From positions 1 through 54,636 of the forward strand of contig JAPPNA010000149.1 of NCBI GenBank assembly GCA_028873925.1: 54,636 bases of DNA, in the 5' to 3' direction. The notes beneath the pieces are model-generated. The model did no database searches and was not told the origin of the DNA. It saw only the letters and a program-made list of their open reading frames with translations. Numbering within the stretch: the first letter of the stretch is position 1; every line of letters starts with the position of its first letter. Shown one piece after another: positions 1 through 50,596 of this stretch. The translations under genes and the position numbers were made by a program. Source of the stretch: Bacteroidota bacterium. Lineage in GTDB: Bacteria > Bacteroidota > Rhodothermia > Rhodothermales > Bin80.

Positions 1-141
1 GCGATCTCAGCCGTCCTGGCTGACTCCAACCGCCACAAAAAGGGCCAAATAGAAGGATATTTTTCGGGTTTCCCAACAAGTTAGCGCTTATGGGGCTCAG
101 AAAATAGTCAGCGCAGTGTGAAACCTCTTGATTCTGGCTAC

Positions 142-159
142 GTATACTGTAGCGTTACA
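142..159 (+). promoter_or_regulatory. Putative promoter -10 with overlapping operator palindrome
   Basis: A TATACT hexamer at 143-148 lies 27 bp before the chosen ATG at 175 and could be a -10 box. It is immediately followed by and overlaps TGTA-GCGT-TACA (148-159), an inverted repeat with 4-bp arms. A GTATAC palindrome sits at 142-147. This resembles the operators of HigA-type antitoxins, and the protein encoded just downstream begins with such a DNA-binding domain. Autorepression is therefore plausible but inferred. Confidence 0.45.
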
Positions 160-174
160 CTTTACATCACTGCT

Positions 175-3100
175 ATGAAAAAGTCAGCAAACATGCAGCA
201 GAAAATCGGGGAGTTTATTCGGCGGAAAATCATCCCGACAGGGTTGACCATCACGGATGCAGCCAAGAAATTGGGAGTGAGCAGACCCGCGCTCTCCAGG
301 GTGCTCAACGGCCACGCGTCTCTTTCGCGGGATATGGCCCTGCGTCTACAGGAAACATTTGGCGCTAATGCGAGCGAGATCCTCGGAATGCAGGAGGACG
401 TAAAGTCCGGCACGCAGCATCGCACCACCCAGTCCCATCGATACGTACCGGATTTTCTCACTATCAAGGCTGCCGATATTGAATCCTGGAGCGAACGGAG
501 AATTGAGGCGCGCAGCGAACTTCCCGTTCTGGTGCGACGCCTTGTTTACGCCACCGGTAGTGAATTGCTACATGTGGATTTCCCAGGCTTTGACAACTCC
601 CAGCGGCCTAGCTTTGACGGGCTTGTCAAGGCTGGTACAGCAACACCGTTCGTACCAGCGGGTCCATCGGCGTGGGAGTTGAGCACTGAAAAGAGGACGA
701 TGGCTAAGGCTAACCGGGATTTCAATTCTGGACTGAACAAGATCTCTCAGCAAGAACGTGCAAAACGCACCTTCGTGTTCGTAACCACGCGGAATTGGAC
801 GGGCAAGAATGATTGGGCGAAGACGAAGAATCAGCTGGGCGAATGGAATGAGGTGCGTGCTTATGATGCATCTGACCTAGAGCAGTGGCTGGAGTCGACG
901 ATAGCACCTCGAATTTGGCTCGCTGAAAAGCTGGGCATGCCTACCGAGGGTTATCGGACCATTGAGGCATTTTGGGACGATTGGGCGAATGCCACTAAGC
1001 CGCCATTGACCGCAGAGCTATTCGCACCCTCAATAAGACTCCACGAGGAAAAACTGCGAGAATGGCTGGCAGCGCCGCCAGACCGCCCATTAATTGTTGC
1101 TGCCGACTCCCGAGAAGAGAGCATTGCGTTCATTGCCTGCCTCCTGCTTGCGGAGAAATGTCGGAAGGCAGCCCCGGGTAGCGCGGTTCTTTTTGAATCG
1201 GCCAGAACGCTCAGATTTCTGGCGGAATCAACGGCACCATTCGTGGCCATCATCGCTAACGACGAGATTGAGCGCGAAGTCGCCAGTGTATTCAGGAAGT
1301 ACCATTGCATCGTGGTGCACGCGCGCAATAACCCCTTTACCCAGCCGGATATCTCTATTGATTCTCTGAATCAATATTCATTTGACCATGCACTCGCGGA
1401 CATGGGCATTGGCCTAGGCGAGATGGCCCGCCTTGCTCGTCAGTCTGGTCTGTCCCGGACCAGACTGCGATGGCTACTCATAAACACTGCAATCGGAGCG
1501 CAACAGTGGTCCAGTGATGCACGAAGCGCCAAAAAACTCATTCCGATGGCTCTCGTAGGGGCGTGGAACGAGGGATTTGATGCTGATCGCGAGATCCTTG
1601 AGAAACTCTCCGGCACCTCCTACGAATTCGTTGAACGTGCGGTCGTTGACCTCTTCGCGATTGAGAATGGCCCAGTCTGGTGCATAGGCAAGTATAGGGG
1701 GGTCGCGCCAAGAATTGACGCACTATTTGCCGTGGCTCCATATCTGATCAAGAAGGACTTGGATTGCTTCCTGGAGAGGGCCAAATATGTGCTTACAGAG
1801 TCCGATTTTCCACTTGAGATTCCACACAACTCGCGTCTCCGGGATGGAATTGTTGGTAGAACGCGTGAGCACTCTCCTGAATTGCGAAGCGGCATTCTCG
1901 ATATGTTGATTCTCCTAGCGATTCATGGAAACCGCCTCTTTAGGGATCGCACGGAAGTAGATGTGGAAGATAGAATCAGTAGTCTTGTGGATCGCCTTCT
2001 GGTCCCGCTGACCGGCGAAAAGCTGAAGTCGCATGACCTCGATTTGCCTGATTTGGCAGAGGCCGCGCCGGATAAATTTATTGAAATCCTGCGAAAAGAC
2101 CTAAAGCGTTCGGAATCTGCTCTGAAGTCCGTGCTTCTGGCTCCCAAGCAGGATCTGTTCGCCAGCCCGTCACTAACGGGAATTCTGTGGGCGCTGGAGC
2201 GTTTGGCATGGCACCGAACCCACTTTATGGATGTGGTCCTTATCCTTGCCGAGATGTCAAGTATGCGGAACAATGAGGGCTGGAGCAGTACGCCGCTGAA
2301 TAGCCTTGCTGGAATTCTTGATTCTCGGCTACCCCAGACGAACGTATCGGTGAGTGATAGGATTCTTGCACTGAAAAAACTGTGCCGCGAGTTTCCTGAT
2401 ACCGGCTGGCAGGTCTGCTTACGACAGATTGATGATAGTAACCGGGTCATTAACTACTCAAATCGTCCGCGTTGGCGTGACGCAGGATCAGCGATGCCGA
2501 CGAGCAGGAATGATCTCCTGGAATCCATGCAGGCAGCACTGGATCTGGTCCTTGATAGGCCTTCCCCTGACGCAAAGGCAGTAAAAGATCTCTTGCCGCG
2601 CATGTACGGCCTGGATGAGCACATACAGCTTAAGATTCTGTTCTGGGTCAACAAATGGGCGGAGTTGCACCCAGTCGATAACGGCAGAGCGGAAATCCGT
2701 GATGAAATAGGACGATTCGTGCAGTACTTACCCGGCACGCTCGCAGTTCCAGGCAGCGAGGTGCTTAAGGCGGCGCAAGATCTCCTCGATCAACTTGCTC
2801 CAAAAGATAAGTTTGAGGTCCTAGCTGCTCCATTCAGGGGAATTTGGGAACACTTCAGCCTCGCACAATCACAAGATCCGAGTCTGTACTTGAGGGACTG
2901 GCCAGATAAGCACGATGCAATATGCAGGAACTCGATGGCAGACATTTGGTCTTTCCATGGAATTGATGGCGTGCTAAGGCTTCTCTACGAGGAGAATAAA
3001 GGGGGCAAGGTTGGGCAATATGCAGCTGAGTGCGCGCACGACTCAAATATGGCTTCCGAAGTGATTAAGGCTGCCTTATTGGCAAAGACAGTCCCCCGCG

Positions 3101-4251
3101 AGAGGATCGATGACTTCCTAACGGGCTTTCTCTATGGACTTAGAGCCGAGACCTTCGCTAAGGTACTGACCGAGCTACCAAATGATGTCCCTGATAACGA
3201 AACCGTTCGACTCTTCCGTTGTGCGCGACCTTGCAGGGAGACATGGAGGCTCCTTGAAAAGCTGCCACGATCCCTCCAAGACCAATACTGGACTACTGTT
3301 GAGGTGTCCTCTGGACCGATTCCTTTTCGGGAATATTCTGTGCACGAAGCGCGAATACTCACTCATCATATGTTGCGCGTCGGTCGGCCATGGGACGCAT
3401 TTGCTGCACTGATGGATGAGTGGGATCGCGTGGATTCCAAAACGCTCAGGTGCCTGCTCCAATGCGTTACCGAACAGGGTTTGGAACAGAGACATTTTTT
3501 CGGGAATCTGGCACGCAATATGCCGAACGCAATTGGCTCCCTAGCGCGGCGCAAAGGGGTTTCGGAGCAGGAGTTGGCGGATTTGGAATTGGCCTCCATC
3601 AATTGGATCCCCCCAGAAGATCGCAAGGTGCCTAATCTTGAATCCCGGATCATTAGTTCACCGGAGTACTTTGTTTACATGCTCTCATTATCCTCAAAGC
3701 GTGGAACTGCAGGGCAAGATCCACCGAAATGGCAGATTGAAGACGAGGGCGAACGAGAGATCATGGCGGTGAGGGCTGGCAGCCTGCTTGATGTATTGCA
3801 CAGGCTGCCTGGTCAAGATACAGAGGGACAGATCGATTCATCAGAGCATATCAGCTGGATTGCAGAGGCTCAGCGCATTGCTTCGGAACATGGCCGCTCC
3901 GAGATTTGCGACCTGCAGATCGGCCGATGGCTGTCCAGAACTCAACCGCAGAATGAGGCCCCATGGCCAAGTCGCCCAGTCTGCACTGTACTGGAGCACT
4001 TTGCGTCCGAAAAGATGGCTGAGGGGTTGCGTGCTGGTGTGCATGAAGCGCGAGGAAGCACAACGCGATGCACCTATGATGGCGGCGCACAGGAGCGGAG
4101 TCTTGGAGAGGAGTTTCGGGGCTGGGCGGAGCATTGGTCAATTGAATATCCGATTGTATCTAGGATTCTCAGAAAGATCTCAGACAGTTACGGGAGGATG
4201 GCAATGCACGAAGATCACCAAGCCGGTGCAAGACAGCGCCATGACCTGTAG
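175..4251 (+). CDS. Xre/HigA-like HTH fused to a large STAND-like putative defence protein
   Basis: This 1358-aa protein is unlike any housekeeping enzyme I recognise. Residues about 7-72 form a HigA-type helix-turn-helix (ITDAAKKLGVSRPALSRVLN). Residues about 140-185 contain FDG followed by GPSAWELST and KAN, a pattern like PD-(D/E)XK-related domains at the front of bacterial STAND proteins. Then comes TFVFVT..NW..K..W and YDASDLEQWLE, a block I associate with the same group. A following segment (LIVAADSREESIAF) sits where a P-loop would be but lacks GK, so nucleotide binding may be lost. The rest is long, helical and repeat-like. ATG at 175 is chosen because the HTH begins there; ATG at 193 is possible, and a GTG at 118 would overlap the operator. 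Anti-phage sensing is inferred from architecture. It is not a simple antitoxin because no HigB gene is adjacent. Confidence 0.7.
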   Translation: MKKSANMQQKIGEFIRRKIIPTGLTITDAAKKLGVSRPALSRVLNGHASLSRDMALRLQETFGANASEILGMQEDVKSGTQHRTTQSHRYVPDFLTIKAADIESWSERRIEARSELPVLVRRLVYATGSELLHVDFPGFDNSQRPSFDGLVKAGTATPFVPAGPSAWELSTEKRTMAKANRDFNSGLNKISQQERAKRTFVFVTTRNWTGKNDWAKTKNQLGEWNEVRAYDASDLEQWLESTIAPRIWLAEKLGMPTEGYRTIEAFWDDWANATKPPLTAELFAPSIRLHEEKLREWLAAPPDRPLIVAADSREESIAFIACLLLAEKCRKAAPGSAVLFESARTLRFLAESTAPFVAIIANDEIEREVASVFRKYHCIVVHARNNPFTQPDISIDSLNQYSFDHALADMGIGLGEMARLARQSGLSRTRLRWLLINTAIGAQQWSSDARSAKKLIPMALVGAWNEGFDADREILEKLSGTSYEFVERAVVDLFAIENGPVWCIGKYRGVAPRIDALFAVAPYLIKKDLDCFLERAKYVLTESDFPLEIPHNSRLRDGIVGRTREHSPELRSGILDMLILLAIHGNRLFRDRTEVDVEDRISSLVDRLLVPLTGEKLKSHDLDLPDLAEAAPDKFIEILRKDLKRSESALKSVLLAPKQDLFASPSLTGILWALERLAWHRTHFMDVVLILAEMSSMRNNEGWSSTPLNSLAGILDSRLPQTNVSVSDRILALKKLCREFPDTGWQVCLRQIDDSNRVINYSNRPRWRDAGSAMPTSRNDLLESMQAALDLVLDRPSPDAKAVKDLLPRMYGLDEHIQLKILFWVNKWAELHPVDNGRAEIRDEIGRFVQYLPGTLAVPGSEVLKAAQDLLDQLAPKDKFEVLAAPFRGIWEHFSLAQSQDPSLYLRDWPDKHDAICRNSMADIWSFHGIDGVLRLLYEENKGGKVGQYAAECAHDSNMASEVIKAALLAKTVPRERIDDFLTGFLYGLRAETFAKVLTELPNDVPDNETVRLFRCARPCRETWRLLEKLPRSLQDQYWTTVEVSSGPIPFREYSVHEARILTHHMLRVGRPWDAFAALMDEWDRVDSKTLRCLLQCVTEQGLEQRHFFGNLARNMPNAIGSLARRKGVSEQELADLELASINWIPPEDRKVPNLESRIISSPEYFVYMLSLSSKRGTAGQDPPKWQIEDEGEREIMAVRAGSLLDVLHRLPGQDTEGQIDSSEHISWIAEAQRIASEHGRSEICDLQIGRWLSRTQPQNEAPWPSRPVCTVLEHFASEKMAEGLRAGVHEARGSTTRCTYDGGAQERSLGEEFRGWAEHWSIEYPIVSRILRKISDSYGRMAMHEDHQAGARQRHDL

Positions 4252-15246: not shown

Positions 15247-17046
15247 TCAATGCTCCATGGATAGAACGGCCAGGAATGCCTCCTGGGGCACTTCAACGCT
15301 GCCCACCTGCTTCATACGTTTCTTACCCTCTTTCTGTTTTTCCAGGAGCTTTCGTTTGCGCGTAATGTCACCGCCGTAGCATTTGGCGGTGACATCCTTG
15401 CGAACGGCCTTCACGGTGGTCCGTGCAATGACCCGACTGCCGATAGCCGCCTGGATCGCCACCTCAAACATCTGACGCGGGATCAGGTCCTTAAGACGCG
15501 CAGTCAACTTTCGGCCCATTTCGTAGGCCTTGCTGCGATGCACAATTGCGCTCAGCGCATCCACCGGATCCTTATTGATTAGGATGTCCAACTTTATCAG
15601 GTCACTCTTCCGGTAGCCGCTGAAGTCATAGTCAAAAGAGGCGTACCCGCGGCTGAGGCTCTTGAGCCGGTCATAAAAGTCAAAGACGATTTCACCCAGC
15701 GGCAGCTTATATTCAAGGCTGGCGCGCTGGGTGTCCAAGTAGGTCTGATTCACGTAGACACCGCGTCGCTCCTGGCACAGCTTCATGATATTGCCGATAT
15801 ATTCGGTGGGCGTGATGATTTCCGCGGTCACATACGGCTCCCGGATATGATCTCTGACATTCGGCACCTTGTTCGGATTTTCGATCACTTCCACTTCGCC
15901 ATCTGACCTGACCACTTCATATTTGACATTGGGAAGGGTGGTGATGATGTCCATGTTGAACTCACGGTCCAGCCGCTCCTGTACGATTTCCATGTGGAGA
16001 AGCCCGAGAAAACCTACACGAAACCCGAATCCCAGTGCGGCGGAGGTTTCCGGCTCGTATTCGATGGCGGCATCATTGAGCTGCAGGCGCTCGAGGGATC
16101 CACGCAGATCCTCAAAGTCTTCCGCATTGGCCGGGTAGACCCCGGAAAACACCATGGGCTTAACTTCCTTAAAGCCGGCGATGGGTGTTTCAGCGGGATA
16201 TCTGGTGTGGGTAATTGTATCGCCCACCTTGGTATGTCGGACATCCTTGATGGACGCGATTACGTAGCCCACATCTCCGGCCCGCAGTTCGTCAGCGGGC
16301 TGCATCCCCAGCCGCAGGTGTCCGATTTCTTCGGCGAGATATTCCTGGCGAGTCGCCATGAATCGAATCGGATCACGTCGGCGCAGCGTACCCTCAAAGA
16401 TGCGGACATAAGCAACCGCCCCGCGATACTGATTGAATACGGAGTCAAATATGAGTGCCTGCAGGGCTGCGTCCGGATTGCCTTTCGGTGCCGGTATGCG
16501 CCGGACGATGCAATCCAGTAGGGCCGACACTCCGTCCCCTGTCTTAGCGCTGATTTTAAGGATATCTTCCGCCGGCTCTCCAATCAGATTCTCCACTGAC
16601 ATGGCCACCAGATCCGGGGCAGCCCCGGGCAGATCAAGTTTATTGAGAACGGGGATAATCTCCAGATCATTATCCAGGGCCAGGTACAGGTTGCTGATCG
16701 TCTGGGCCTCAATGCCCTGAGCCGCATCCACCACCAGAATCGCTCCTTCACAGGCATTCAGCGCCCGTGACACTTCATAGGCAAAGTCCACATGGCCTGG
16801 GGTATCTATCAGGTTGAGCGTGTACTGTACGCCATCCGGTGCCCGGTACCGCATCTGGATTGCGTGGCTCTTGATCGTGATGCCACGCTCGCGCTCCAGG
16901 TCCATGGAATCCAGCACCTGATCCTGCATTTCCCGCTGCTCCACTGTGCCGGTCAGTTCCAGCATGCGGTCAGCCAGCGTGCTTTTGCCGTGATCAATGT
17001 GCGCAATTATGCAGAAATTGCGGATTCGGCTCAGGCCCGACGACAT
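15247..17046 (-). CDS. lepA: Elongation factor 4 (LepA), back-translocating ribosomal GTPase
   Basis: A 599-aa LepA, the usual length. G1 is AHIDHGKST, followed by [10 protein letters not shown] (G2), DTPGH (G3) and NKLDLP (G4). The family-specific C-terminal domain ends with [19 protein letters not shown]. It acts on the ribosome to relieve stalled or mistranslocated states. ATG at 17046 gives the canonical [20 protein letters not shown]; a longer in-frame start at 17127 is not conserved in type. The first 58 codons or so are duplicated as a pseudogene at 18341-18515. It heads the lepA, secreted protein, lepB operon. Confidence 0.97.
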
Positions 17047-17292
17047 CAGCCCCCGCGAAGTTCGGTGGAGTCCGGCAAACTGCAGATACGGGCGGGATTC
17101 TGTTGCACGAAACCGAAGGGTCTGCATTTTGGGGATGCCTCGGAGCCAGCCTGGAATCCCGCGGGCTGCCGTGGGCCGAACTGCACATAGCTCCTGCCCC
17201 GGCTGAAGGGTACTGGCAGGCCGGTGATGCGCAGCGTTGCGTCAGGCTCTGATTCAGCAGGCACTTCCAAGATGATCGGCTGGGTCCAAAAC

Positions 17293-17325
17293 AAAAAATC
17301 CCTGCAGACCTAAGGGCTGCAAGGG
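17293..17325 (-). terminator. Rho-independent terminator of tRNA-Leu
   Basis: Read on the minus strand just after the tRNA, CCCTTGCAG and CTGCAGGG pair with one bulged base around a 7-9 nt loop. A run of six T residues follows. It lies 7 bp beyond the tRNA 3' end. The same hairpin, slightly changed, is present in the duplicated copy near 18760-18795. Confidence 0.65.
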
Positions 17326-17332
17326 TAGCTTG

Positions 17333-17416
17333 TGCCCTGGAGAGGACTCGAACCTCCACGTCCGTACGGACACAGCATCCTGAATGCTGCGCGTCTACCA
17401 GTTCCGCCACCAGGGC
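17333..17416 (-). tRNA. tRNA-Leu (anticodon CAG)
   Basis: The minus-strand sequence folds as a long-variable-arm tRNA. The acceptor is GCCCTGG/CCAGGGC with discriminator A, the D arm starts at GCGGAACTGG, the anticodon arm is CAGCA-TTCAGGA-TGCTG, and the variable arm is GTCCGTACGGAC. The T loop is TTCGAGT. The anticodon CAG reads CUG leucine codons. CCA is not encoded. A degenerate copy lies at 18801-18884. Confidence 0.95.
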
Positions 17417-17618
17417 ATGGTGAATTTGAATGCACGCAGGGTGGGACTGTTCCCGCTTCCAGTCGACCGGATGAGCGGTTGGCTCGTATTTCTCTGCCGA
17501 GTCCTTACCCAGCGCGCGTAGCCCGGGCGGAACAGCTGTTCCGAGGATTGATTATTGGGCCGTGGGAAACTCGTTGGGTGAACAGGCTTACGAGATATCC
17601 AGATCAGATTGCACAAAG

Positions 17619-17810
17619 ATGGGAAATCAGGAGCGCTCCAGCGATCCCAAGCGATCTTCCGATGATAGACGCGAGGAAGATGCGTCGCGCAAAGAAGAGC
17701 CGAGACCACCAAGGTGGATCAAGGTGCCTGATGTGAGGGCCGAGCCTGAGACAATGACAGCCAGAGAATTCTGGCGGGCCGTCGGAAGGGGGCTCACAGA
17801 AAGAGTTTGA
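17619..17810 (+). CDS. 63-aa conserved small protein, copy A
   Basis: A small hydrophilic protein with no recognised family. The N half is rich in Asp/Ser/Arg/Glu (DRREEDASRKEEP). The C half is PPRWIKVPDV, then MTAREFWRAVGRGLT. The second copy at 19092-19283 has the same length and frame and nearly the same C half, although the surrounding noncoding sequence has drifted. That argues that it is or was a real gene. There is no clear ribosome-binding site. It is convergent with the membrane-protein sequence and overlaps the 3' end of the latter in copy B. A role as a CBASS-linked accessory is speculation. Confidence 0.5.
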   Translation: MGNQERSSDPKRSSDDRREEDASRKEEPRPPRWIKVPDVRAEPETMTAREFWRAVGRGLTERV

Positions 17811-18345
17811 TCAAGAACAGCCATAGTAGAGCGGGCATGGGGGACCATTGAAATGAGGCCGCCAATGCCCGCACAATCTGGGCGCAATCGCGGTCGTTCC
17901 GAGCTGCCGGAGTCAGTTTGCTGAACTTGCCCGGCGTGTTGCGCCAATTCCTTGTATCGCGCTGAGGGCGGAGATGGCAATGCTGAACACACGCAAGCCC
18001 ATCACGAAGCTGAGTCCCTTCTCCAAACCTTAAGCTTGGGTCCGTGCCTCCCAGTCTGTCCCGAAAACAAAGATGGAGGCTGCAAACGTGACGATGCCCA
18101 TGGCTTTGACCCCATACTCCTGACTCAAAGCGCGATTCTGGCATTGGGCCAGAAATACTTCTGCGCTATCACGCGCGGGGGCTAAGCCTTCTTCAAAGTC
18201 GTCAGGATGGATGGCGATTACGTTCTCAGACTCAAGTTCCGTTACAGAATCTGTTACGGGAAACGCCGCTAGGTCGTACATGTCCACATCTACTGAGGTC
18301 GCCAACCGCCACGAAAAACTTGAACCACGCCCGCTGACCTTGATT
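17811..18345 (-). pseudogene. Broken 3' fragment of the CBASS-linked membrane protein gene
   Basis: Minus-strand sequence here encodes [37 protein letters not shown] and [12 protein letters not shown]. These match residues about 185-255 of the intact protein at 19267-20382. A five-codon deletion follows LSQE, after which the frame is lost (frameshifts and stops) and only nucleotide similarity continues toward 17811. The N-terminal half, including TM1, is absent. At 18341-18345 the sequence joins the lepA fragment, giving a short chimeric reading frame that lacks a proper start. Confidence 0.8.
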
Positions 18346-18515
18346 GCGATGCTTCGCTCGCGCTTGAGATCCATGGAGTCCGGCACCTGATCCTGCATTG
18401 CCCGCTGCTCCACTGTGCCGGTCAGTTCCAGCATGCGGTCGGCCAGCGTGCTTTGGCCGTGATCAATGTACGCAATTAGGCAGAAATGGCGGATTCAACT
18501 CAGGCCGGACGACAT
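18341..18515 (-). pseudogene. lepA 5' pseudogene fragment
   Basis: A copy of the first 58 or so lepA codons from MSSGLS to about RERSIAIK. Codon 7 is TGA at 18495-18497 where lepA has CGA. The G1 motif reads DHGQST instead of DHGKST, so the GTP-binding lysine is lost. It cannot make LepA. The fragment is the left end of the second repeat unit. Confidence 0.85.
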
Positions 18516-18800
18516 CGGCCCCCGCGAAGTTCGGTGGAGCCGGGCCAACTGCAGATACGGGCGGGATGCCGGTGCACGAAACCGAAGGGTCTGCATTTTG
18601 GGACTGCCTCGGATCCGGCCCGGAATCCCGAGGGCCGCCGCGGGCCGAACTGCACACAGCCCCTGCCCCGGCTGACGGATACAAGCAGACCGGTGAGGCG
18701 CAGCGTTGCGTCACGCTCTGATTCAGCACGCACTTCTAAGATGATCGGCCGGATCCAAAACAAAAAGCCCCGCAGACCTAAGGGCTGCAAGGGTAACATG

Positions 18801-18884
18801 TGCCCTGGAAAGGACTCTAACCGCCACATCCGTACGGACACAGCATCCTGAATGCTGCGCGTCTACCAGTTCCGCCACCAGGGT
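18801..18884 (-). pseudogene. Degenerate tRNA-Leu copy
   Basis: Duplicate of the tRNA at 17333-17416. The anticodon arm is unchanged. The acceptor stem now begins with A opposite C, the T stem has lost pairs (GGCGG against CCTTT), and the T loop reads TTAGAGT rather than TTCGAGT. It is unlikely to give a functional tRNA. Confidence 0.75.
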
Positions 18885-19091
18885 AAGGTGAGCTGGACTG
18901 CTTGCGGCGGCACTGTTTCCATCATCAGGATCTAATTGTCGCCAAACAGAGCTGTTGAGCTGGCTGATTGGGATCGGTGCCGGAATGCCTGCTCTTCGCG
19001 CGTAGTCCTGACAAAACAGGTGTCAATTAATGGGTCATGGGAAACATGTTGGATGAGTGGGCGTACGAGACCCAACTTAGCTTGCGCAAAG

Positions 19092-19283
19092 ATGGGAAAT
19101 CAAGAGCACTCCAACGATTCCAAGCGACCTTCTGACGGTTCGCGCGAAGTAGATGCGTCGCGCACGGAAGAGCCGAGACCACCAAGGTGGATCAAGGTGC
19201 CTGATGTTAGCTCACCACCCCAAAAGATGACCACAAGGGAATTCTGGCGGGCTGTTGGCAAAGGGCTCACACTAAGAATTTGA
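19092..19283 (+). CDS. 63-aa conserved small protein, copy B
   Basis: Same length as copy A. It shares EEPRPPRWIKVPDV and REFWRAVGKGLT, while the middle and N-terminal acidic/serine segment differ by several substitutions. Sequence upstream of this ATG differs from copy A by a 2-base length change, so longer N-terminal versions would not be in the same frame in both copies. This supports the short start. Its last 17 bases overlap the convergent 3' end of the CBASS membrane-protein gene. No domain is recognised. Confidence 0.5.
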   Translation: MGNQEHSNDSKRPSDGSREVDASRTEEPRPPRWIKVPDVSSPPQKMTTREFWRAVGKGLTLRI

Positions 19284-20382
19284 GCAGACACAGGAAGAAC
19301 AGAGGCAGCATGGCGGTAAACGTCATGAAAGTCAGGCAGGCTGCTTTGTTCGTGAGTACCTTTTCGTTTTCTTGGATGGCGGTCTGATGTGAAGCGGCTA
19401 TCGCTCTGATGAGTTTCACGGAATCAGCGTCGTTCCGTGCATTGAGTGCCAGCATCTCGATTTTTCCTAAATCGCAAGCATTCCACCACCCTCTTGGCCT
19501 GATTATGACACTGAGGGCCGAAGTGATGATGCTGAGTACACTCGCCGCTAAAGCAAACCCGAGCAGTCTTTCCAGAATCGATGATTCGGGCCATGCCCCC
19601 CAGTCTACACCGAAGACCAGCATGGAGGCTGCAAACGTCACGATTCCCATTGCCTTAACCGCGCATTCTCTATTGAATCGTTCCTGACTCAGAACTCTAT
19701 TCTGGCATTGGGCCAGAAACACTTCTGCGCTATCACGCGCGGGTGCTAAGCCTTCTTCAAAGTCGTCAGGATGGATGGCGATTACGTCCTCGGACTCAAG
19801 TTCCGTTACAGAATCTGTTACGGGAAACGCCGCACGGGCCTGTCGTAAACGTCTACGCTGACTGAGGTCAGCAATCACCACCAGGAATTCGAACCACGCG
19901 TGCTGACCCTGATTATGTGGCGAACGAACACCGATCTTCTCCAACTGAAGTTCTAACGCTACGCGGGCCTCGATTCTGGTTGCCAGTGATCGACCCGGCT
20001 GGCCACTTTCATCCAGCTCTTCTCGCGTAGCTCGTAGTTCACGCTTAATTTGAGGGTGCAGCGCCCTGAATCTAGCGGTGGGTCGAACTCTAATTGGCCA
20101 AGGCCACTTAGCCCAGAAGGGCGTGAAGAATCCAGGCGCGGCGGAGCTGATGCTCTGTAGCCTATTTGTGGCAACATACTCCCAGAATTCCGGTCCATAT
20201 ATGCAGTAGACCAAGCCGGTGACCACAGCAACCGGCACGGCAACGCGGCTGAAAAGGTGTGTCACGCTTGAGGATTGAACACATTCCGCCCGGTTACCTG
20301 CAACTGCGCACCCCTCCGGTCGCGCAGGTCTAGAGGCTAACTGAATGATCCCGGCCGTCAAGCTGTACCCAAATCGCGTCAT
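19267..20382 (-). CDS. Four-TM membrane protein coupled to the CBASS operon
   Basis: A 371-aa protein, not a family I can name. Predicted TMs lie at about 45-62, 243-260, 272-294 and 347-369. A charged soluble region (100-240) has many Glu/Arg helices, and an inward loop (296-345) carries WWNACDLGKIEML and NDADSVKLIRAIAASHQ. Long helices on a membrane-spanning bundle resemble the SLATT or Pycsar-type TM effectors only in layout. The start codon overlaps the E2 stop as ATGA (20379-20382), so it belongs to the CBASS operon as fourth gene. A membrane effector or an accessory factor is inferred. Its 3' part is duplicated at 17811-18345. Confidence 0.7.
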   Translation of the reverse strand: MTRFGYSLTAGIIQLASRPARPEGCAVAGNRAECVQSSSVTHLFSRVAVPVAVVTGLVYCIYGPEFWEYVATNRLQSISSAAPGFFTPFWAKWPWPIRVRPTARFRALHPQIKRELRATREELDESGQPGRSLATRIEARVALELQLEKIGVRSPHNQGQHAWFEFLVVIADLSQRRRLRQARAAFPVTDSVTELESEDVIAIHPDDFEEGLAPARDSAEVFLAQCQNRVLSQERFNRECAVKAMGIVTFAASMLVFGVDWGAWPESSILERLLGFALAASVLSIITSALSVIIRPRGWWNACDLGKIEMLALNARNDADSVKLIRAIAASHQTAIQENEKVLTNKAACLTFMTFTAMLPLFFLCLLKFLV

Positions 20383-20801
20383 GACTGTCCCGGTCCAATG
20401 TGCGGTGCTTCGGGTCCATACCAGATCCCGGTTTCAAGCCAGCCTTCGTAGAAGTAAAACCAAAGAGCAGTCCACGGCAGCACGGTCTTAGCCAAAAGGA
20501 GTCCCTCATGCGCCCTGAAAATCTGGGGATGAACTAGGCACAGTGAGCCATTCCTGTATAGGTGAGGTGCGCGCGGGTGCAGCTTCGGCGAAATTACCGA
20601 TATGCGCCCGTACGGCAGGGGCGGATATTCAAGCCTCACTGAGTACGCGGGTGAATTTATGCTCGGAGTGAGACTGCCTCCACAAATCAGCTTCTGCCCC
20701 TTGATCCTGCACCTGAAGCCGGGGAAGAATCGTTGAATCGCAGCCTTTTGAGTCGGCAGCCTATTGGCGCTGAACGGCTTTGAATAAAGATTATTCGCCA
20801 T
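20379..20801 (-). CDS. CBASS E2-like protein (type II short)
   Basis: A 140-aa protein of the CBASS-associated E2 fold. Strands carry YSVRLEYPPLPYGRISV, then PHLYRNGSLCLVHP with the probable catalytic C88 and H80. The C-terminal signature TVLPW, YEGWLETG.W, EAPH is typical of E2 proteins encoded next to bacterial CD-NTases. In related systems the E2 attaches the CD-NTase C terminus to a target and primes it. No E1/Cap2 or JAB/Cap3 gene is present, so this is the short form. ATG at 20801 lies inside the CD-NTase gene (11-bp overlap). Longer in-frame starts lie well inside the nucleotidyltransferase and lack coding sense. Confidence 0.82.
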   Translation of the reverse strand: MANNLYSKPFSANRLPTQKAAIQRFFPGFRCRIKGQKLICGGSLTPSINSPAYSVRLEYPPLPYGRISVISPKLHPRAPHLYRNGSLCLVHPQIFRAHEGLLLAKTVLPWTALWFYFYEGWLETGIWYGPEAPHIGPGQS

Positions 20802-21831
20802 AAAAACCCTCATTGTTCGGAGTGCTAATGCCGGAACCGCCGATGATGCCATCAAGGCCCACGGTGATGCCGCCGACAGCAAATCTTTTCGCGATCTCTT
20901 GCTGCCGTTTACCAATTCCCCTGATGGTTGTCGGGAATCGGCCATCAAACAAATTCGGCCCGTTCCAGAGCTTGATGGTCTCCTCTTCGCCGCGGGATTT
21001 AAGAGCTGCCTCGGCAGCCGAACTGGCGCGGCCTATTCGCTCGCGGAAACTGCCAATAGAATGAGGAGGCCAGTTTCGAGCTAAGTTCTCAGACTTAAGG
21101 GAAGGATTTAACACTCTCGGAATGCCATGATTTGGTTGCTGGCCTGCCCATGCCGATATTCCCGCCATTGTCAGAGCCAGTGCCTCATCTACAGAACGAG
21201 CATCATGTGGCAGATGCAAGCCAGCGAGCGTGGTGAGCACCATCGAATTCGGGTGCTCAAGGCGGTGAAGATCCCGCCAGAATTTTAGCAGTCGCGCAAC
21301 TTTAGGAAGGAATCCGCCATGATCTGAATTGGTCATTCTGAACCATTCGATGTACCCCTTTGGATTGGACTCGCGCCAATCCTGAGGTATCTGCAGCGGC
21401 TTCCAATCGCCATTCTTCAGGTGGGCTGGCAGCACGTCCAGGTGAAAATCCAGCCCATCAGAGCTGTATGCCACCCGGATGCATCTATTGAGCATCCGCG
21501 TTTTGCCCGAGTACATGCTCACGGCCTCCAGTGCCCCCTTAACCTTTAGCAGCACCACCGCACCATGAGGGAGCAGCCCCTGCTGATCCATTAGCTCCAT
21601 CCCGAGCACTACGTCGACATCGTATGGCTTATCGGCATGAGGACTCTTTATGGCAGTATTGAGGGCATAGCTTCCCTGAAGCAGGGTCCTACCCGCGTGT
21701 TCGCGAATCCAATCGTCCTGTTCAAGACTTGCGCGCACGGAACGGTGCGCGGACTTTATCCGGTCAAGACGAGACGGATTCAGGTTAACACTCTTCTGCA
21801 GGAATTCGGAAAAGGACTTGTTGAGAAACAT
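20791..21831 (-). CDS. CD-NTase (cGAS/DncV-like nucleotidyltransferase) of CBASS
   Basis: A 346-aa enzyme that would make a cyclic oligonucleotide second messenger upon phage infection. The nucleotidyltransferase core is clear: QGSYALNTAI with G53-S54, DVDVV with D71 and D73, and the third acid D132 in FHLDVLP. The helical OAS-like half follows. The C terminus ends -GFYGE, relevant because E2 proteins act on the CD-NTase tail. ATG at 21831 is chosen because it begins the usual N-terminal helix; ATG at 21876 would overlap capV by 29 bp. Neither has a clear ribosome-binding site. The messenger identity cannot be read from the sequence. Confidence 0.9.
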   Translation of the reverse strand: MFLNKSFSEFLQKSVNLNPSRLDRIKSAHRSVRASLEQDDWIREHAGRTLLQGSYALNTAIKSPHADKPYDVDVVLGMELMDQQGLLPHGAVVLLKVKGALEAVSMYSGKTRMLNRCIRVAYSSDGLDFHLDVLPAHLKNGDWKPLQIPQDWRESNPKGYIEWFRMTNSDHGGFLPKVARLLKFWRDLHRLEHPNSMVLTTLAGLHLPHDARSVDEALALTMAGISAWAGQQPNHGIPRVLNPSLKSENLARNWPPHSIGSFRERIGRASSAAEAALKSRGEEETIKLWNGPNLFDGRFPTTIRGIGKRQQEIAKRFAVGGITVGLDGIIGGSGISTPNNEGFYGE

Positions 21832-21847
21832 GAAAAAGGATGTTTGG

Positions 21848-22927
21848 TTAACAGTTGTTTTCGGGTACGGGGACAAACGGATCGGTCTCGCTGTTCAGGA
21901 ATCTGCGAGCCGTTGATTCTGCGCTGGCTTTGGCCTCTTCATGGGCGATTTCGGAAAGCCTCCCCACCTTATCCGTGGCATCAAGGTCAAACCCGCGGTC
22001 AGGAAGGGAGAACTGAATCCGCAGGTGTCCGCTCTCGCCAAGCAATTGATTCATGACATTTTCGCCGCTATCAGTCTGTGCCTGCATGGACAGTGTAACG
22101 AGGTCTGTATTCCAGCCAAGCAGGCCGTTGGACCCGAAGGGAGTAAGGCGATGAAGCCAGGTCTGCGTCACAGAGCGCTGGAAGAAGCTGCTGCCTGTTC
22201 CGATCGAAAGCAGGTCGATCGCATCCAAATTGAAGTCCATCCGCAGGGCTTCCGTGATCGCTACGACTGTAGGGCAATTGGCCCAAATGCCGCCATCTAC
22301 GTATTCGCCAACACCACGCAGCCTGAAAGGGCTGAAATAGATGGGCGCAGCAGATGTGGCCGCGGCAATCTGCCAGGCCTTGAGCAGATAGTCACGCACC
22401 AGATACGCTTCATGCCGAGTCTTGAAAACGGTGACCCGCCCGGTGGCAATATTGACAGCCGGAATGCACAAGCGGCATCGCGCCGCGCCCAGCTTTGTCT
22501 CAGATCCAAGGACATCACGGAGCACACCGTGAAAAGGACCGCTCCGATATAGAGAGTCTCGGAGCGCCGCATACAGCCTCATTGACTTGGGATGCCGCCG
22601 AGAAAATATGTCGTCGGTCTTATTGCGGAATAGGCTGAAGATCTCTTTGGCAGGCACATCAAGAGCAATTGCAATCGCGATGATGCCGCCAGCGGAGGTT
22701 CCGCAGATCAGGTCAAAAAAACGCCGGACGGGAGATCCCGCAATCTCCTCCAGCCTGGCCAGATAGGCGGCCGTGCATACTCCGCGCACGCCGCCGCCAT
22801 CCAGTGCGAGGATGCGGAATCGCTGGGTGCACCGCGTGCGTTCAACCCCTGACTCATCCAAGGCTGGTTTCTGCTGCATCCTGTCTGCCTGCCTTAGGCT
22901 CTGTTCAGGTATCGTAGAGTTTGTCAT
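21848..22927 (-). CDS. capV: Patatin-like phospholipase, CBASS effector (CapV-like)
   Basis: A 359-aa patatin-family lipase. The oxyanion motif DGGGVRG is at 43-49, the nucleophile S78 lies in GTSAG, and the aspartate D211 lies in DGG. All catalytic elements are intact. In CBASS, CapV is activated by the cyclic nucleotide from the neighbouring CD-NTase and degrades the inner membrane, killing the infected cell. It is the first gene of the four-gene minus-strand operon and is divergent from the regulator pair at 23056, across a 128-bp control region. Confidence 0.92.
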   Translation of the reverse strand: MTNSTIPEQSLRQADRMQQKPALDESGVERTRCTQRFRILALDGGGVRGVCTAAYLARLEEIAGSPVRRFFDLICGTSAGGIIAIAIALDVPAKEIFSLFRNKTDDIFSRRHPKSMRLYAALRDSLYRSGPFHGVLRDVLGSETKLGAARCRLCIPAVNIATGRVTVFKTRHEAYLVRDYLLKAWQIAAATSAAPIYFSPFRLRGVGEYVDGGIWANCPTVVAITEALRMDFNLDAIDLLSIGTGSSFFQRSVTQTWLHRLTPFGSNGLLGWNTDLVTLSMQAQTDSGENVMNQLLGESGHLRIQFSLPDRGFDLDATDKVGRLSEIAHEEAKASAESTARRFLNSETDPFVPVPENNC

Positions 22928-22997
22928 ACGGCTGCCTACTGTGGTTCGTTCCTATGACAACCCATTCGTGCACACTTGGTTCCCAGCGGCAAATCAA

Positions 22998-23020
22998 TTG
23001 GCATAAGCGTAGATTGCCAA
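22998..23020. promoter_or_regulatory. Inverted repeat in the CBASS divergent promoter region
   Basis: TTGGCA and TGCCAA form 6-bp arms separated by 11 bases in the 128-bp gap between capV and the Xre gene. The position, 36 bp before the Xre ATG, suits an operator for the Xre protein. No -10/-35 pair is obvious, so this is a candidate only. Confidence 0.4.
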
Positions 23021-23055
23021 GGTTGAATCGGCGATGATCACTCTCTGAGGCCATA

Positions 23056-23412
23056 ATGGAAGCATTCGGCAAGCGCGTGAGGCAATGGCGGATCGAACGC
23101 GGACTAAGTCAGGCCGAATTTGCTGAACTGGTCGGGATTTCGCGGAATTACGTTTCGCAAGTGGAGCGTGGGGTGTCTAACAATCTGTCTCTAACAGTGG
23201 CGCGCAGAATTTGCGGCGAACTCGGGATTCGATTGGACCCCCCGGAGGTGACTGTCCCGGAGAGTCTGCGGCAGTTTGCTAAGCAGGACGGGCTTGAGCC
23301 GGAGGAAGTCCAAGTCCTGGCAGCCATTGAGTATCGGGGGAGCCGGCCGTACACGGTAGAAGCCTGGCGACTGCTTCACCTCGCCATCAAATCAGCGGCC
23401 GGAGGGCGATAA
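23056..23412 (+). CDS. Xre-family HTH regulator (CapH-like position)
   Basis: A 118-aa protein with an Xre/Cro helix-turn-helix in residues 5-60 (WRIERGLSQAEFAELVGISRNYVSQVERG). The short C-terminal part contains GLEPEEVQVLAAIEYRG and AWRLLHLAIKSA. It is divergent from the CBASS core and 3 bp upstream of a peptidase gene. This matches the arrangement in which a CapH repressor holds a CBASS promoter and a CapP peptidase relieves it by cleavage. DNA binding is sure by motif; the CapH role is inferred. It could equally be a generic Xre/ImmA phage-type switch. Confidence 0.85.
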   Translation: MEAFGKRVRQWRIERGLSQAEFAELVGISRNYVSQVERGVSNNLSLTVARRICGELGIRLDPPEVTVPESLRQFAKQDGLEPEEVQVLAAIEYRGSRPYTVEAWRLLHLAIKSAAGGR

Positions 23413-23415
23413 GCG

Positions 23416-24333
23416 ATGGTGAAACGGCACCAGTATCAGCGTCCGGGCAGGCAGTTTATTGAACAGTCTCCACCGCTGGACCGGATCGCGGACTTTTCGG
23501 AGTATTTGGATCGGTATGCCCATTTTCTCAGGGAGGAGTCTGGAGTGGGGCACTGCCCGCCGATTGATTTGGACAAAATCTGTAAGCATTTCGGGATAAC
23601 TTTTGCCGAATGCCCCCTCGATCCAGACACAGAAGGCGCATCCAGTGAGGCCATAGGGTGGATTGGTGTTAACAGCCAGGTTCGTGCCAGGACGCGCAAG
23701 CGGTTCACCGTTGCCCATGAGCTTGTGGAGCTGCTTGTTGCAGTACTGCGGGATTCGCCCATTGCGGACAGTATTCGGTTCCAGTTGGAGGGATCCGAAA
23801 AGGAGGCTCTTTGCAACAGCGGAGCTGCGTCGCTGCTGATTCCCCCCTCCAGCCTTCAAGTGAATGGCCAGAACCCCGCCTGCTCTGCCACCTCCATCAG
23901 ATCCCTGGCACGACGGTATCAAACTTCTTTTCTCGCCACGACCATCAGCGTGGTGAGGCATAGTCCTGATCGGGCAGCCCTAGTCGCCTGGAAACGAATG
24001 CGCAAGCCCACAGAAGAAAGAAAGCTCAATGGAGGCGCTCAGTTGAGTTTGGGGCAAGGCTTTGAGATCGAATTTGAGCCTAAACTCCGCATCAGGTGGA
24101 CCATCAGATCACACGCTGCGGGTGTACCCTTCCTGCCCGTGTATAAGTCGGCAGCCGAGAATTCAGTCATCCATCAATGCCTTCGTGAGCAGCGGGATTT
24201 CCTCGGTAGCTCGGTGGTTGACCCTGACCTTAAACTCGGGCCGGACTGCACAATCGATGTAATTCACCAGCATCCGGAAAGTGAATTTGAGGTGTTGACA
24301 CTTCTGAGATGGCCGAAGGTGCCGAGCAGCTGA
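23416..24333 (+). CDS. ImmA/IrrE-like metallopeptidase (CapP-like position) with HExxE motif
   Basis: A 305-aa protein of the ImmA/IrrE/COG2856 type. RFTVAHELVELLV aligns with the zinc helix, but the usual HExxH reads H101-E-L-V-E105, so the second histidine is a glutamate. Downstream EALCNSGAASLLIP matches the conserved helix with the third ligand region. The C-terminal 110 residues (from about LNGGAQLSLG) are an unrecognised beta-rich domain that could sense a signal. It begins 3 bp after the Xre stop and is co-transcribed. If active it would cleave the Xre repressor and switch on CBASS. The altered motif leaves catalysis open. Confidence 0.75.
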   Translation: MVKRHQYQRPGRQFIEQSPPLDRIADFSEYLDRYAHFLREESGVGHCPPIDLDKICKHFGITFAECPLDPDTEGASSEAIGWIGVNSQVRARTRKRFTVAHELVELLVAVLRDSPIADSIRFQLEGSEKEALCNSGAASLLIPPSSLQVNGQNPACSATSIRSLARRYQTSFLATTISVVRHSPDRAALVAWKRMRKPTEERKLNGGAQLSLGQGFEIEFEPKLRIRWTIRSHAAGVPFLPVYKSAAENSVIHQCLREQRDFLGSSVVDPDLKLGPDCTIDVIHQHPESEFEVLTLLRWPKVPSS

Positions 24334-34860: not shown

Positions 34861-37581
34861 TCATGGCCCAACGGAGTATTGCTTCCCGGTTACCGATGGC
34901 TCGCTGGAAAGCAGGTGCCGTGCATCAATGCATGTGGACAGGTCGTAGCCGGTATGCTTACAGACAGCCCGATCAATTTCCGCCTGCACCTCACACAAAT
35001 GAGCCTCAGGCAGGCTGCGCTTCCTGAGAGGAGCCAGATGATCATAAGCCTCGGCCAGCGATTCGACTGCTGCGGAGCCGAGGCATCTCAGATTGGGTAT
35101 GACGACCCGATGCTGGTCTGCAATCGAAATCGGGGCATAACTGAGCTTGCGGAATACCCGCACCAGCATATACGCCAGTTTGCCCGGGGTTGAATTCAGG
35201 ATCAGCACCAGTGCTTTTTCCAGCGCAACAGTATCAACCCCGTTAACGGCTATCACACTGCAGGTGCGCCATGATGACCCGACCGCCGGCACGGTGGTAC
35301 GGCAGGCAAAGACCCTGATGGTCGGAAAATTCATCTTATTGGTCAGATGCAGATAGTTGGCCTTCCGCAGTGATGCGTTGATTTTTTCCACCGCATCAGG
35401 ATCGACCTCATTGGAACCCTTTTCTTTCGTCCTTGGGGGGCGTACATGGCAGTCGGGCACGAGCTCCATCCTGTCACAGTAGTTTGCATTGTGGTCGTAA
35501 AGGGCGGCCGTGGCGAAACGCTCGTTTTGCCCGCACTTGATGGTGTTGCGAATCGGCCGCCCGGCCACTTCAACGCGGACCTGATGGCCCAAGGTACTGG
35601 TCCAGGGTGTGTTTGTGGTAATGCGATACAGTTCGTTGCTCATGAACTGAACCGCGGACCAGTCGCCATCCAAGATGGCCGCCGGTTCCGCCAAGTCAAT
35701 TACGGCCCTCCCGTAGTCTGCAGCCGTGCCGTTGTTGATGCTGCTCATGCAAGTTGAGGCATCCGCCGCGGATGCCGGATTGTCTATCAGCTTGACTACT
35801 TCAGTCGATCTTCGCTCTTGCAGGCCGTTTCTGTCCAGCACCATCAGCATTTCTCCTATTGATGTCTCGCCGGACATAAACAGGCGCGTAGGGTCGTGTG
35901 AGACAACAATGCGCCGAACATGAAACCTACCAGCCAGGTACATCCTCGTGCCTCGTGCAGAAGGGGCTGTGCAGAATGAGCTGGGTCCCACTATTCCGAG
36001 CCTGCCCGTAGCAGAATTCAGAAATCTCTCTGCGAGAACCATAAACCCGTTTGCGTTGCTGGACCTGGTTATCGGCAGCCCGGCATACAGTTCCGCCTCC
36101 CTTTGACCCAGCCTCTTCTTGAGGCCCGGTCCCAACTGGTCATGCCGAATGTCGACCCGTGTATACGGAGGATTCATGATAGCCAGATCAAATTCCGAGC
36201 ACTCAATCGGCGCGGGGCTGGCATCTATTCTGGTACCGGTAGTCGGCCTGGGATTCAATGAAAGCTGCCCCTTATCAGCAAGCAGTTCAAGTGATCCCAG
36301 ACGGGCATGCCCGATGTGATCAGCCCCGAGTACCATGCTGTAGAGATGCATCCTGTTGAAAGTCACCGGCGGGAACACCATTCCCAAGCCCGTAGCCGTC
36401 TGGAAAATGGCCCGGTTGTTGATGTCAAATCCATATATAACCTGCTCCAGAAGTGCCTGGCAGACTTCGTCGCGGCGGCCTGTTCCTTCGTGTTGCAGAA
36501 TGTGGTTCACCACGGCAATCAGTAGCGTGCCGGTGCCGCAGGCAAAATCCACGACGCGCAGTCCGATCACCTGGTCATAATCGGTCCAGTCTATCCCCAG
36601 CCCATTGAATAGCAGGCCGGCAAGCATAACGGCGGCAGGCAGTGAGGTATACATGGATCCGTCGCTCCTGGCGGTTTCGACTGACTGGCAGAACGTAATG
36701 CCAATGAGATCATGGTGGTCCTTGCCCTTTGCGCTTTGTATGTCCAGGGCGGCGCGTATCAGCGTGGCGGCGGCCTCCTCTTTGGCCGGAGACTCGGGAA
36801 GTGCATTCAGGATCGCACAACTCCACTCCAGAATCTGCCGGTAATCCACAGCCAGCCAACTCCGATGGGCTTCGTACAGCAGCCGGGTGATCGTAATTGA
36901 CTGCTGGCACGCCCGCACCGTTGAGGGGGGCCAGCCCGCTGTGATCCCGACCGGCCTCGGCGTATCATGTCTGATTCCGTCCAACTGAGCATGAAACATG
37001 ATTGCCGTAAGCAGATCTGTCATCAGTCCCCGGACATTGGTGCCCTTGGCCGAGGGTCCCATGTTGGCCATAATGAGTGCGGCCTGAGGTTTGGTAAATT
37101 TACCGGCCGCTTTTAGTACCGCAGTCCTTGCCATGCCGGCCAGCACTTCAGGGGATCCAAGCTCGTTTGGCAGTTGAAGGATCAGGGCGGCCAGATCCAT
37201 CGTACGCAGCCGCCGCCACTCCGCTTTGCCTGGGGGTGGGCGGTGCTGCTTCATGCGAACGGAAACCTCTACCTCGCCGCTTCGGACATCGTCTTCCGTT
37301 TCAAATGTATCCGGGTAGAGCAGTGCTAACGACATTGTGCACACATCCCGCCTGATAAGTTTATCATCTGCGGCCCGAAGCGCCAACCTCCTGCGTCCCG
37401 CCACTTCCTTTGCCGTACGTCCGCGCCCAATCTTCGCCTCGATGGCAATCTTTGTATCGTCGACTCGGCATTCAATGTCCGTCTGGCTGGCATCCGGTTG
37501 ACGGACCTCGGGTGCGGCATCCACCCCTCCGGCTCTGAGCAGGCTGGCCAGATATGTGTTCAGAACGGCCTCAGCGGCCAT
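34861..37581 (-). CDS. Single-chain restriction-modification enzyme (Type IIG-like)
   Basis: A 906-aa fusion. Residues 30-50 hold a PD-(D/E)XK nuclease motif (TDIE with D35, then IAIEAK with E48 and K50). Residues about 60-335 are a helical connector. An N6-adenine methylase follows, with the SAM motif DFACGTGT at 345-352 and the catalytic NPPY at 470-473. The C-terminal 350 residues probably recognise the DNA target. One chain would both methylate adenine and cut, protecting against phage and plasmid DNA. No separate HsdS/HsdR genes are present. ATG at 37581 is preferred; a TTG at 37620 would add 13 residues. BREX PglX is an alternative, but no BREX genes are near. Confidence 0.82.
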   Translation of the reverse strand: MAAEAVLNTYLASLLRAGGVDAAPEVRQPDASQTDIECRVDDTKIAIEAKIGRGRTAKEVAGRRRLALRAADDKLIRRDVCTMSLALLYPDTFETEDDVRSGEVEVSVRMKQHRPPPGKAEWRRLRTMDLAALILQLPNELGSPEVLAGMARTAVLKAAGKFTKPQAALIMANMGPSAKGTNVRGLMTDLLTAIMFHAQLDGIRHDTPRPVGITAGWPPSTVRACQQSITITRLLYEAHRSWLAVDYRQILEWSCAILNALPESPAKEEAAATLIRAALDIQSAKGKDHHDLIGITFCQSVETARSDGSMYTSLPAAVMLAGLLFNGLGIDWTDYDQVIGLRVVDFACGTGTLLIAVVNHILQHEGTGRRDEVCQALLEQVIYGFDINNRAIFQTATGLGMVFPPVTFNRMHLYSMVLGADHIGHARLGSLELLADKGQLSLNPRPTTGTRIDASPAPIECSEFDLAIMNPPYTRVDIRHDQLGPGLKKRLGQREAELYAGLPITRSSNANGFMVLAERFLNSATGRLGIVGPSSFCTAPSARGTRMYLAGRFHVRRIVVSHDPTRLFMSGETSIGEMLMVLDRNGLQERRSTEVVKLIDNPASAADASTCMSSINNGTAADYGRAVIDLAEPAAILDGDWSAVQFMSNELYRITTNTPWTSTLGHQVRVEVAGRPIRNTIKCGQNERFATAALYDHNANYCDRMELVPDCHVRPPRTKEKGSNEVDPDAVEKINASLRKANYLHLTNKMNFPTIRVFACRTTVPAVGSSWRTCSVIAVNGVDTVALEKALVLILNSTPGKLAYMLVRVFRKLSYAPISIADQHRVVIPNLRCLGSAAVESLAEAYDHLAPLRKRSLPEAHLCEVQAEIDRAVCKHTGYDLSTCIDARHLLSSEPSVTGKQYSVGP

Positions 37582-37791
37582 GTAGTGGGTGAATCTGCAT
37601 GCATGCAACCATGACCTCAAAATTACGCTAAACTTCAGTCAGCGGGCATACCTGTACCATAAGTCCGATAGAGGGATGGATGCATCGGCGTTCATGGCAT
37701 CGCCACATTGATGGGCCTCTGCCCATCTCCCGGTATCCAGCCGGTCTGAGCATGTCCCACCCACCAGGGGCCGATAGGCCATACCCCTCCC

Positions 37792-38985: not shown

Positions 38986-39281
38986 GGATATTGCGCGACC
39001 AGTCACAGCTCCTTATACACATTGGTCAATACCTATGACAGATGCTTACGGCCCATGAGCAAGTATGAGCCATCCCATGCTGCGGACCGCTGGCAGGAAA
39101 GTCCTGCAGAATATTGAGTGCATCGATGGGATGACCTGCGGTTTACAGTGCCTGCTACGGACCGATACATGTATTGGCCCTGCGATGACCACGGCAGACC
39201 CTCTGTTCGGATGATCTTGCGGATGGGGGGGGGCAAAGCTCCATCTCCAGTCTCGGTTTCCCATTGAAGAGGTGGGCCGTA

Positions 39282-47558: not shown

Positions 47559-48017
47559 TTGACAGAGGCTCTTCAGGAGGACGCACTAGCGCTTCCATTG
47601 GAAGAATTCAAGGCGCTGCCCTCTCAGACTCGCAGAATTCCATTCGAGTCAACTGGGGAGCAAGTGGACGAGAGTCTAGAATTCCTTCAAGAATCCGGTC
47701 TGGCGGGAGCAATCAAGAGACAGTTCAGGGGGGTTCTCGCGACATACGGACATGACATGGTCAGACTGAAGCTAGCCTTCGCTGTCGGACTGAAGGAGCA
47801 TGCCCGAGCTATGGTTCGGCAGATTTGCGCTGAAAGGCGCAGGAACCTAACCTCCAGTCTATGCGATAGACTGAAGTCTGTTGTTGCTGACCACGATTAT
47901 GCCGAAGTGGCCCAGTCAATCCTATCTCCGGCATTCAATCAAAGTTCGCCCCGACGGGTACTTCGGGATGGTATAGATGATGGTCCCCAACTCCCAGAAC
48001 CCGGTGGCGCAGCATGA
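47559..48017 (+). CDS. Unknown 152-aa protein opening the QueC-like cassette
   Basis: A helical protein with no recognised family: LPLEEFKALPSQTRRIPF, FLQESGLAGAIKRQFRG and ERRRNLTSSLCDRLK, ending PEPGGAA. No ATG fits; TTG at 47559 has AGGAG at 47542-47546 and is the only usual start codon after an upstream stop at 47496-47498. The stop overlaps the next ATG (ATGA at 48014-48017), so it is translationally coupled to the QueC-like gene. A target or partner of that enzyme is inferred from position only. Confidence 0.6.
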   Translation: MTEALQEDALALPLEEFKALPSQTRRIPFESTGEQVDESLEFLQESGLAGAIKRQFRGVLATYGHDMVRLKLAFAVGLKEHARAMVRQICAERRRNLTSSLCDRLKSVVADHDYAEVAQSILSPAFNQSSPRRVLRDGIDDGPQLPEPGGAA

Positions 48018-50541: not shown

Positions 50542-50596
50542 GAAGTCGCGGCCCGTATAAGCAGTGAGGCAGGCCCGTTATCCATGATCTGAGGTG

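Follow-up and report, generated by a model that had tools for sequence, protein, structure and literature searches.

PD-lambda-4, with its component A (PADLOC PDLC03991), is a tested system (Vassallo et al. 2022, PMC9519451). Avs4 carries a nuclease, a STAND domain and helical repeats in one chain. The former is the closest tested system, and the latter the closest fold, to the protein described here, a 1358-aa fusion in which a HigA-type helix-turn-helix (HTH) stands in front of a predicted nuclease, a STAND-like core and a long helical C-terminus. No published description of such a HigA/STAND/nuclease fusion was found in the open-access literature searched.

The window, that is the whole stretch of DNA analysed, is an entire contig of 54,636 bases (C18) from a 3.9-Mb genome that is 98.6% complete. 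The fusion gene is present in a single copy in this genome and lies at the left edge of the contig, and the genes upstream are therefore unseen. Its reading frame extends from 118 to the stop at 4251 and contains two early GTG codons in frame, one at 118 and one at 142, the latter of which had been quoted as the start in the initial annotation. Because relatives align from the ATG at 175 (L043 among them), and because the upstream GTG codons precede the operator described below or, in the case of 142, sit within it, we take ATG 175 as the likely start, giving a coding sequence at 175..4251 on the + strand. The length of 1358 aa given in the initial annotation held, and all four elements of its description, i.e., the fused open reading frame, the HigA-type HTH, the WELST block with a degenerate P-loop, and the palindrome, were indeed found. 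The nearest named relative, with 46% identity, belongs to a Rhodothermaceae genome bin of the same family (L002/L043). A scan of genomes for relatives gave at least 520, of which the best 80 were retained.

Predicted domains and comparison with known systems

The HTH (residues 9-76; 199..402, + strand) scores 58 bits with TIGR02607 (antidote_HigA) against a cutoff of 47.7 in the HMM search, is matched by Pfam HTH_3 at 6e-9, and agrees in fold with solved HigA structures at Z of about 11. The profile search of the N-terminal region thus confirmed the antitoxin-type HTH claimed for it, TIGR02607 placing it in the HigA family. The HTH was the sole match in HMM searches, the other 1270 residues being without a model in Pfam, NCBIfam or PADLOC. 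An inferred role as a DNA-binding autorepressor is a further likeness to HigA. In contrast to HigA of higBA modules, however, the domain is part of a 1358-aa fusion and not a small stand-alone antitoxin, has no HigB nearby, and is associated with a different operator.

The AlphaFold2 model of the N-terminal half, built with 77 relatives (pLDDT 89.8), together with structural matches and invariant residues, predicts a PD-(D/E)xK nuclease domain at residues 99-254 (469..936, + strand). Residues 88-254 of the model match N.BspD6I, FokI, MspJI and BstEII at Z of 8-10 in VIA, and the criterion for the PD-(D/E)xK core fold is met, with D on strand 2 and E on strand 3 of the prediction. Three residues are each invariant in 81/81 sequences: D148 (616-618, + strand), E168 (676-678, + strand) on strand 3, and K178 (706-708, + strand) on the helix next after E168. 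The WELST block, previously noted as nuclease-like, contains E168, and that claim held. The lysine of the classical ExK motif is missing, position 170 being G or S in all 81 sequences; K178 might conceivably substitute for it, but this is a guess. Nuclease activity itself is inferred from the predicted fold and the invariance of D148, E168 and K178.

A STAND/AAA+-like core with a winged-helix-like part follows at residues about 255-520 (937..1734, + strand), with Avs4 and CED-4/Dark-like proteins as its structural matches. The top Foldseek match of the N-terminal half is Avs4 bound to a phage portal (8dgf; E 2.8e-6), and the STAND/AAA+-like region matches CED-4 in VIA at Z 8-9, just moderately above the usual background. 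The degenerate P-loop ADSREES lies within this core at residues 310-316 (+ strand); the position reads ADSREESIAF in the window protein and ADSxxEALAF in nearly all 81 sequences, and Walker A was found there in none of the 81. The earlier description of a STAND-like protein with a degenerate P-loop was thus correct, the P-loop being lost throughout the 81 sequences, and this uniform loss raises the question of how an NLR-like protein switches without ATP. The rest of the chain (residues about 525-1358; 1747..4248, + strand) is predicted to be an all-helical HEAT-like superhelix (AF2 pLDDT 86.5), the C-terminal half resembling karyopherin/SF3B1/CAND1-type solenoids in Foldseek. From the architecture, this superhelix is presumed to be the sensor.

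Component A of PD-lambda-4 resembles the window protein in length (about the same), in how its domains follow one another (PD-(D/E)xK-like nuclease, STAND-like core and long helical C-terminus) and in a collinear profile match. Its homologues in the same bacterial family likewise have an N-terminal HTH, and the PADLOC model of PD-lambda-4_A begins after the HTH. In these homologues, however, the P-loop is intact (GLSGIGKS) and the nuclease motif is QxK, whereas the window protein has no P-loop and another nuclease variant. The PADLOC PD-lambda-4_A model gave no match to the window protein, and only short, weak, collinear matches in three relatives. Alignment by hhalign of the window family with a PD-lambda-4_A homologue gave a probability of 98.4% over 1083 collinear columns when the HTH was included, and 63.7% (E 7e-5, 897 collinear columns) without it, the latter being suggestive only. 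The body of the fusion protein is likely to be distantly related to PD-lambda-4_A, without belonging to that family. With Avs4, the top Foldseek match of the N-terminal half, the protein also has in common the nuclease, STAND and helical repeats in a single chain, but it differs in the absence of Walker A, in a HEAT-like instead of a TPR sensor, in the added HigA HTH and in the conserved operator; the PADLOC Avs models gave no match to the window protein at E up to 1. Filing as Avs4 or PD-lambda-4 was rejected, as the sequence models fail.

PHROG 18693 (unknown function) matches the body over its full length (residues 108-1368 in the numbering of the GTG form; 2e-108) and, unlike the window protein, is without the HTH. 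Prophage-borne relatives have the body from about residue 444 in common (100%, E 1e-130) and carry a different nuclease-like N-terminus, which shows that the effector end of the family is swappable. At the prophage or plasmid loci L135-L141, L143 and L040, the helical body is joined to a nuclease-like N-terminus with STGGGGVHFEAHVQASF...QIKHS, or to one with SGxGHNxAxDL, and neither the HTH nor the P-loop region is present.

A second HTH-nuclease-STAND-helical fusion was identified in the same genome on contig C89 (L149:3650-7762). It is a homologue of PD-lambda-4_A (PADLOC 8.5e-62) with an MqsA-like HTH in front, the QxK motif and the intact P-loop GLSGIGKS, as are L150 and L151, and is an independent example of a defence NTPase with a regulator-type HTH joined to it.

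Distribution and age of the HigA-type fusion

TIGR02607 was matched by 75/77 of the relatives scanned, which come from at least ten phyla; one of the two exceptions is cut by a contig edge, and the other, L064 (Latescibacteria), genuinely begins after the HTH. This proportion applies to the subfamily and not to the superfamily, the 80 kept loci being the closest ones. The HigA-type members are set apart by a 100/100 branch in the maximum-likelihood tree, show a single loss of the HTH, and include Rhodothermota, Acidobacteriota, Nitrospirota, Chloroflexota, Bacillota, Spirochaetota, Binatota, Myxococcota, Pseudomonadota and Latescibacterota; across the branch are relatives whose HTH is of another, XRE type and relatives that lack one. 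The fusion is an old one and has been conserved. The origin of the HTH by chance extension of the start was ruled out by the 75/77 matches and the single-clade tree. Homologues lacking the HTH, which the initial annotation had named as refuting evidence, are confined to the distant clade and the one derived loss. Its word "unusual" is right as to the type of protein, yet the gene is widespread. In a sister clade (L035, L037, L041 and L042), a control-protein-like XRE HTH replaces HigA, and the gene often adjoins AbiEi/AbiEii or RES-Xre.

An alternative reading is a fused toxin-antitoxin, in which the HigA domain would be a true antitoxin restraining the nuclease in cis, autorepression being a by-product, and in which phage would destabilise the HigA domain and unleash the toxin, as in CapRel-type fusions. 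In its favour, the HTH of the HigA family directly precedes the nuclease domain, and the predicted toxic activity needs control. On the other hand, the nuclease/STAND body is also found without any HTH or behind an unrelated one of the XRE type, which argues that the HigA domain is not required for restraint, and HigA normally neutralises the RelE-fold HigB, which is absent here. We therefore consider this reading unlikely. A HigB-like reading frame was found neither in the window nor at any of the 80 relative loci, in searches that detected the positive controls, and a HigBA module with a hidden toxin was ruled out, since HigB is near none of the 80 loci.

The putative operator and its occurrence

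The palindrome TGTA-GCGT-TACA (148..159, TGTAGCGTTACA), described in the initial annotation as lying over the -10, is longer than was stated, being the core of a 26-bp palindrome, cGTATACTGTAGC|GTTACACTTTACa, at 141..166 with its axis at 153.5. In a motif search of 82 upstream regions, run without assuming the motif first noted and with shuffled sequences as control, TGTA-N11-TACA was found in 45/82, GTGT-N6-ACAC in 38/82 and TGTA-N4-TACA in 28/82, while no palindrome exceeded 5 in the shuffled set. The family consensus from aligned upstream regions is TGTAtYgTGTAGCGCTACAcRaTACA. The PWM finds this operator before 74/79 relatives having enough upstream DNA, no clear operator being found before the other five, and scores it above every one of 260 control stretches. 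Conservation of both HTH and operator among homologues, proposed as a check in the initial annotation, is thus shown.

By the same PWM, the operator is absent from the upstream regions of L064, L036 and L039, which lack the HTH, and from those of five relatives of the XRE type; the latter five regions have no common palindrome, and an operator of their own was not found. Neither was the family motif seen in 24 stand-alone HigA loci of the same class, by which an operator shared with ordinary HigA loci was ruled out.

For the 12-mer core pattern, 0.2 chance occurrences are expected per window. The extended half-pattern, with 2 mismatches allowed, has one exact place on both strands of the 3.9-Mb genome, which is the gene's own promoter. 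With a relaxed pattern, exactly one palindromic site was detected in 17/20 host genomes, and the sites compared by coordinates with the gene fall in or near its promoter (the site of L066 about 0.3 kb upstream); a 3-mismatch site of genome G255 was left unplaced relative to the gene. A regulon under the control of the HTH was ruled out in the genomes searched by this single site. The same result bears on the possibility that the HTH is a targeting arm, guiding the nuclease to sites on invading DNA, with the promoter site as merely one target. The presence of HTH and nuclease in one chain would fit this idea, but in the host genomes searched there is a single site, lying at or close to the promoter of the gene itself, where the nuclease would cut its own gene, and we regard this idea as very unlikely.

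Operator positions -3, +6 and +14 covary with residues S36, A39, L40, A48 and L50, which lie within the recognition helix and close to it, although this covariation is confounded and inflated by shared ancestry. The outer arms of the operator correspond to TTGTAT-N17-TACAAT in the family register and cover -35 and -10 in most relatives, matches to sigma-70 at the arms averaging 6.7/12 versus 3.1 at random places. Since the arms coincide with the core promoter, the bound protein should block the polymerase. The promoter match of the window copy is weaker than that of its relatives, and the position over the -10 remains unproven for this copy because no good sigma-70 promoter was recognised there. 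Self-repression through the operator is likely, because the operator is conserved, is absent where the HigA HTH is missing, occurs at one site per genome and covaries with the recognition helix; this is a comparative inference, without data on binding or repression.

Genomic context and putative defence role

The 123 neighbouring proteins gave matches at 1e-8 to 199 PADLOC models, many of them redundant, whereas a control set of 91 proteins, drawn from 20 arbitrary positions in these genomes, gave 3. The matches include Avs2, RmrA, SoFic and OloA, and no recurring partner gene was found among 519 neighbours. Several members are on plasmids or viral contigs, the plasmid-borne ones adjoining AbiE, RES-Xre, SIR2 and Shedu-like genes. 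The HigA-type members L131 and L132 are located on viral contigs near probable genes for the terminase large subunit, suggesting prophage-carried copies.

Such locations raise the possibility of a plasmid or prophage maintenance gene, for addiction or exclusion, instead of a phage sensor. Several copies are on plasmids, one of them adjoining parAB, and two, on viral contigs, adjoin genes that probably encode terminase. However, genome contigs with defence-rich neighbourhoods account for most of the 80 loci, and there is no conserved partner antitoxin or toxin gene; we consider this explanation unlikely. A role of the fusion protein in anti-phage defence is likely, as supported by the defence-island neighbours relative to the control, the nuclease/STAND/HEAT architecture, Avs4 as the nearest fold and a remote, collinear similarity to PD-lambda-4_A. 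It is an inference from context and homology, with no data on phage protection. No known non-defence family turned up, and the reading as a self-repressing defence sensor is supported, with DNA binding, repression, nuclease activity and the phage trigger all inferred.

The explanation we favour, and consider likely although nothing was measured, is a solitary, autorepressed, P-loop-less anti-phage effector and sensor of the Avs4/PD-lambda-4-like nuclease-STAND-helical-repeat type. By strong comparative inference, an HTH dimer would bind the 26-bp operator over its own promoter and keep the dangerous nuclease low. From the architecture, the HEAT-like C-terminal solenoid would recognise a phage product, upon which an ATP-independent rearrangement is inferred to activate the PD-(D/E)xK domain, so that DNA would be cut and the phage stopped or the cell killed. 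More speculatively, that same shift in conformation or oligomeric state may free the operator and raise expression during infection, as may titration. A bolder reading, no more than possible at present, is that of a bacterial NLR-like receptor working independently of ATP, with a single chain serving as sensor, nuclease and transcription switch, the phage trigger both unleashing the nuclease and lifting the protein off its promoter; if true, it implies a burst of immune protein during infection. How single-gene immune receptors spare their host is a largely open question, and in hundreds of probable defence nucleases from many phyla, a repressor domain inside the effector, with one dedicated operator per genome, appears to provide the restraint. 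The operator is also a DNA signature for finding more members of the family.

Elsewhere in the window, a CBASS-like locus was identified at 20791-24333, consisting of an oligonucleotide cyclase (20791-21876, - strand), a patatin-like phospholipase effector (21848-22927, - strand) and a CapP-like ImmA/IrrE gene (23416-24333, + strand). The regions 34861-39006 and 48014-52848 carry a type II/IIG-like methyltransferase, SoFic (7.5e-100), PDC-S70 and PDC-S15 candidates, and a QatC-like gene followed by an RmrA-like HTH-peptidase, making the contig defence-rich. An imperfect direct duplication of about 1.47-1.56 kb, with blocks 76-95% identical, is located at 16870-19833 and takes in a SLATT-like membrane gene as well as the 5' end of lepA.
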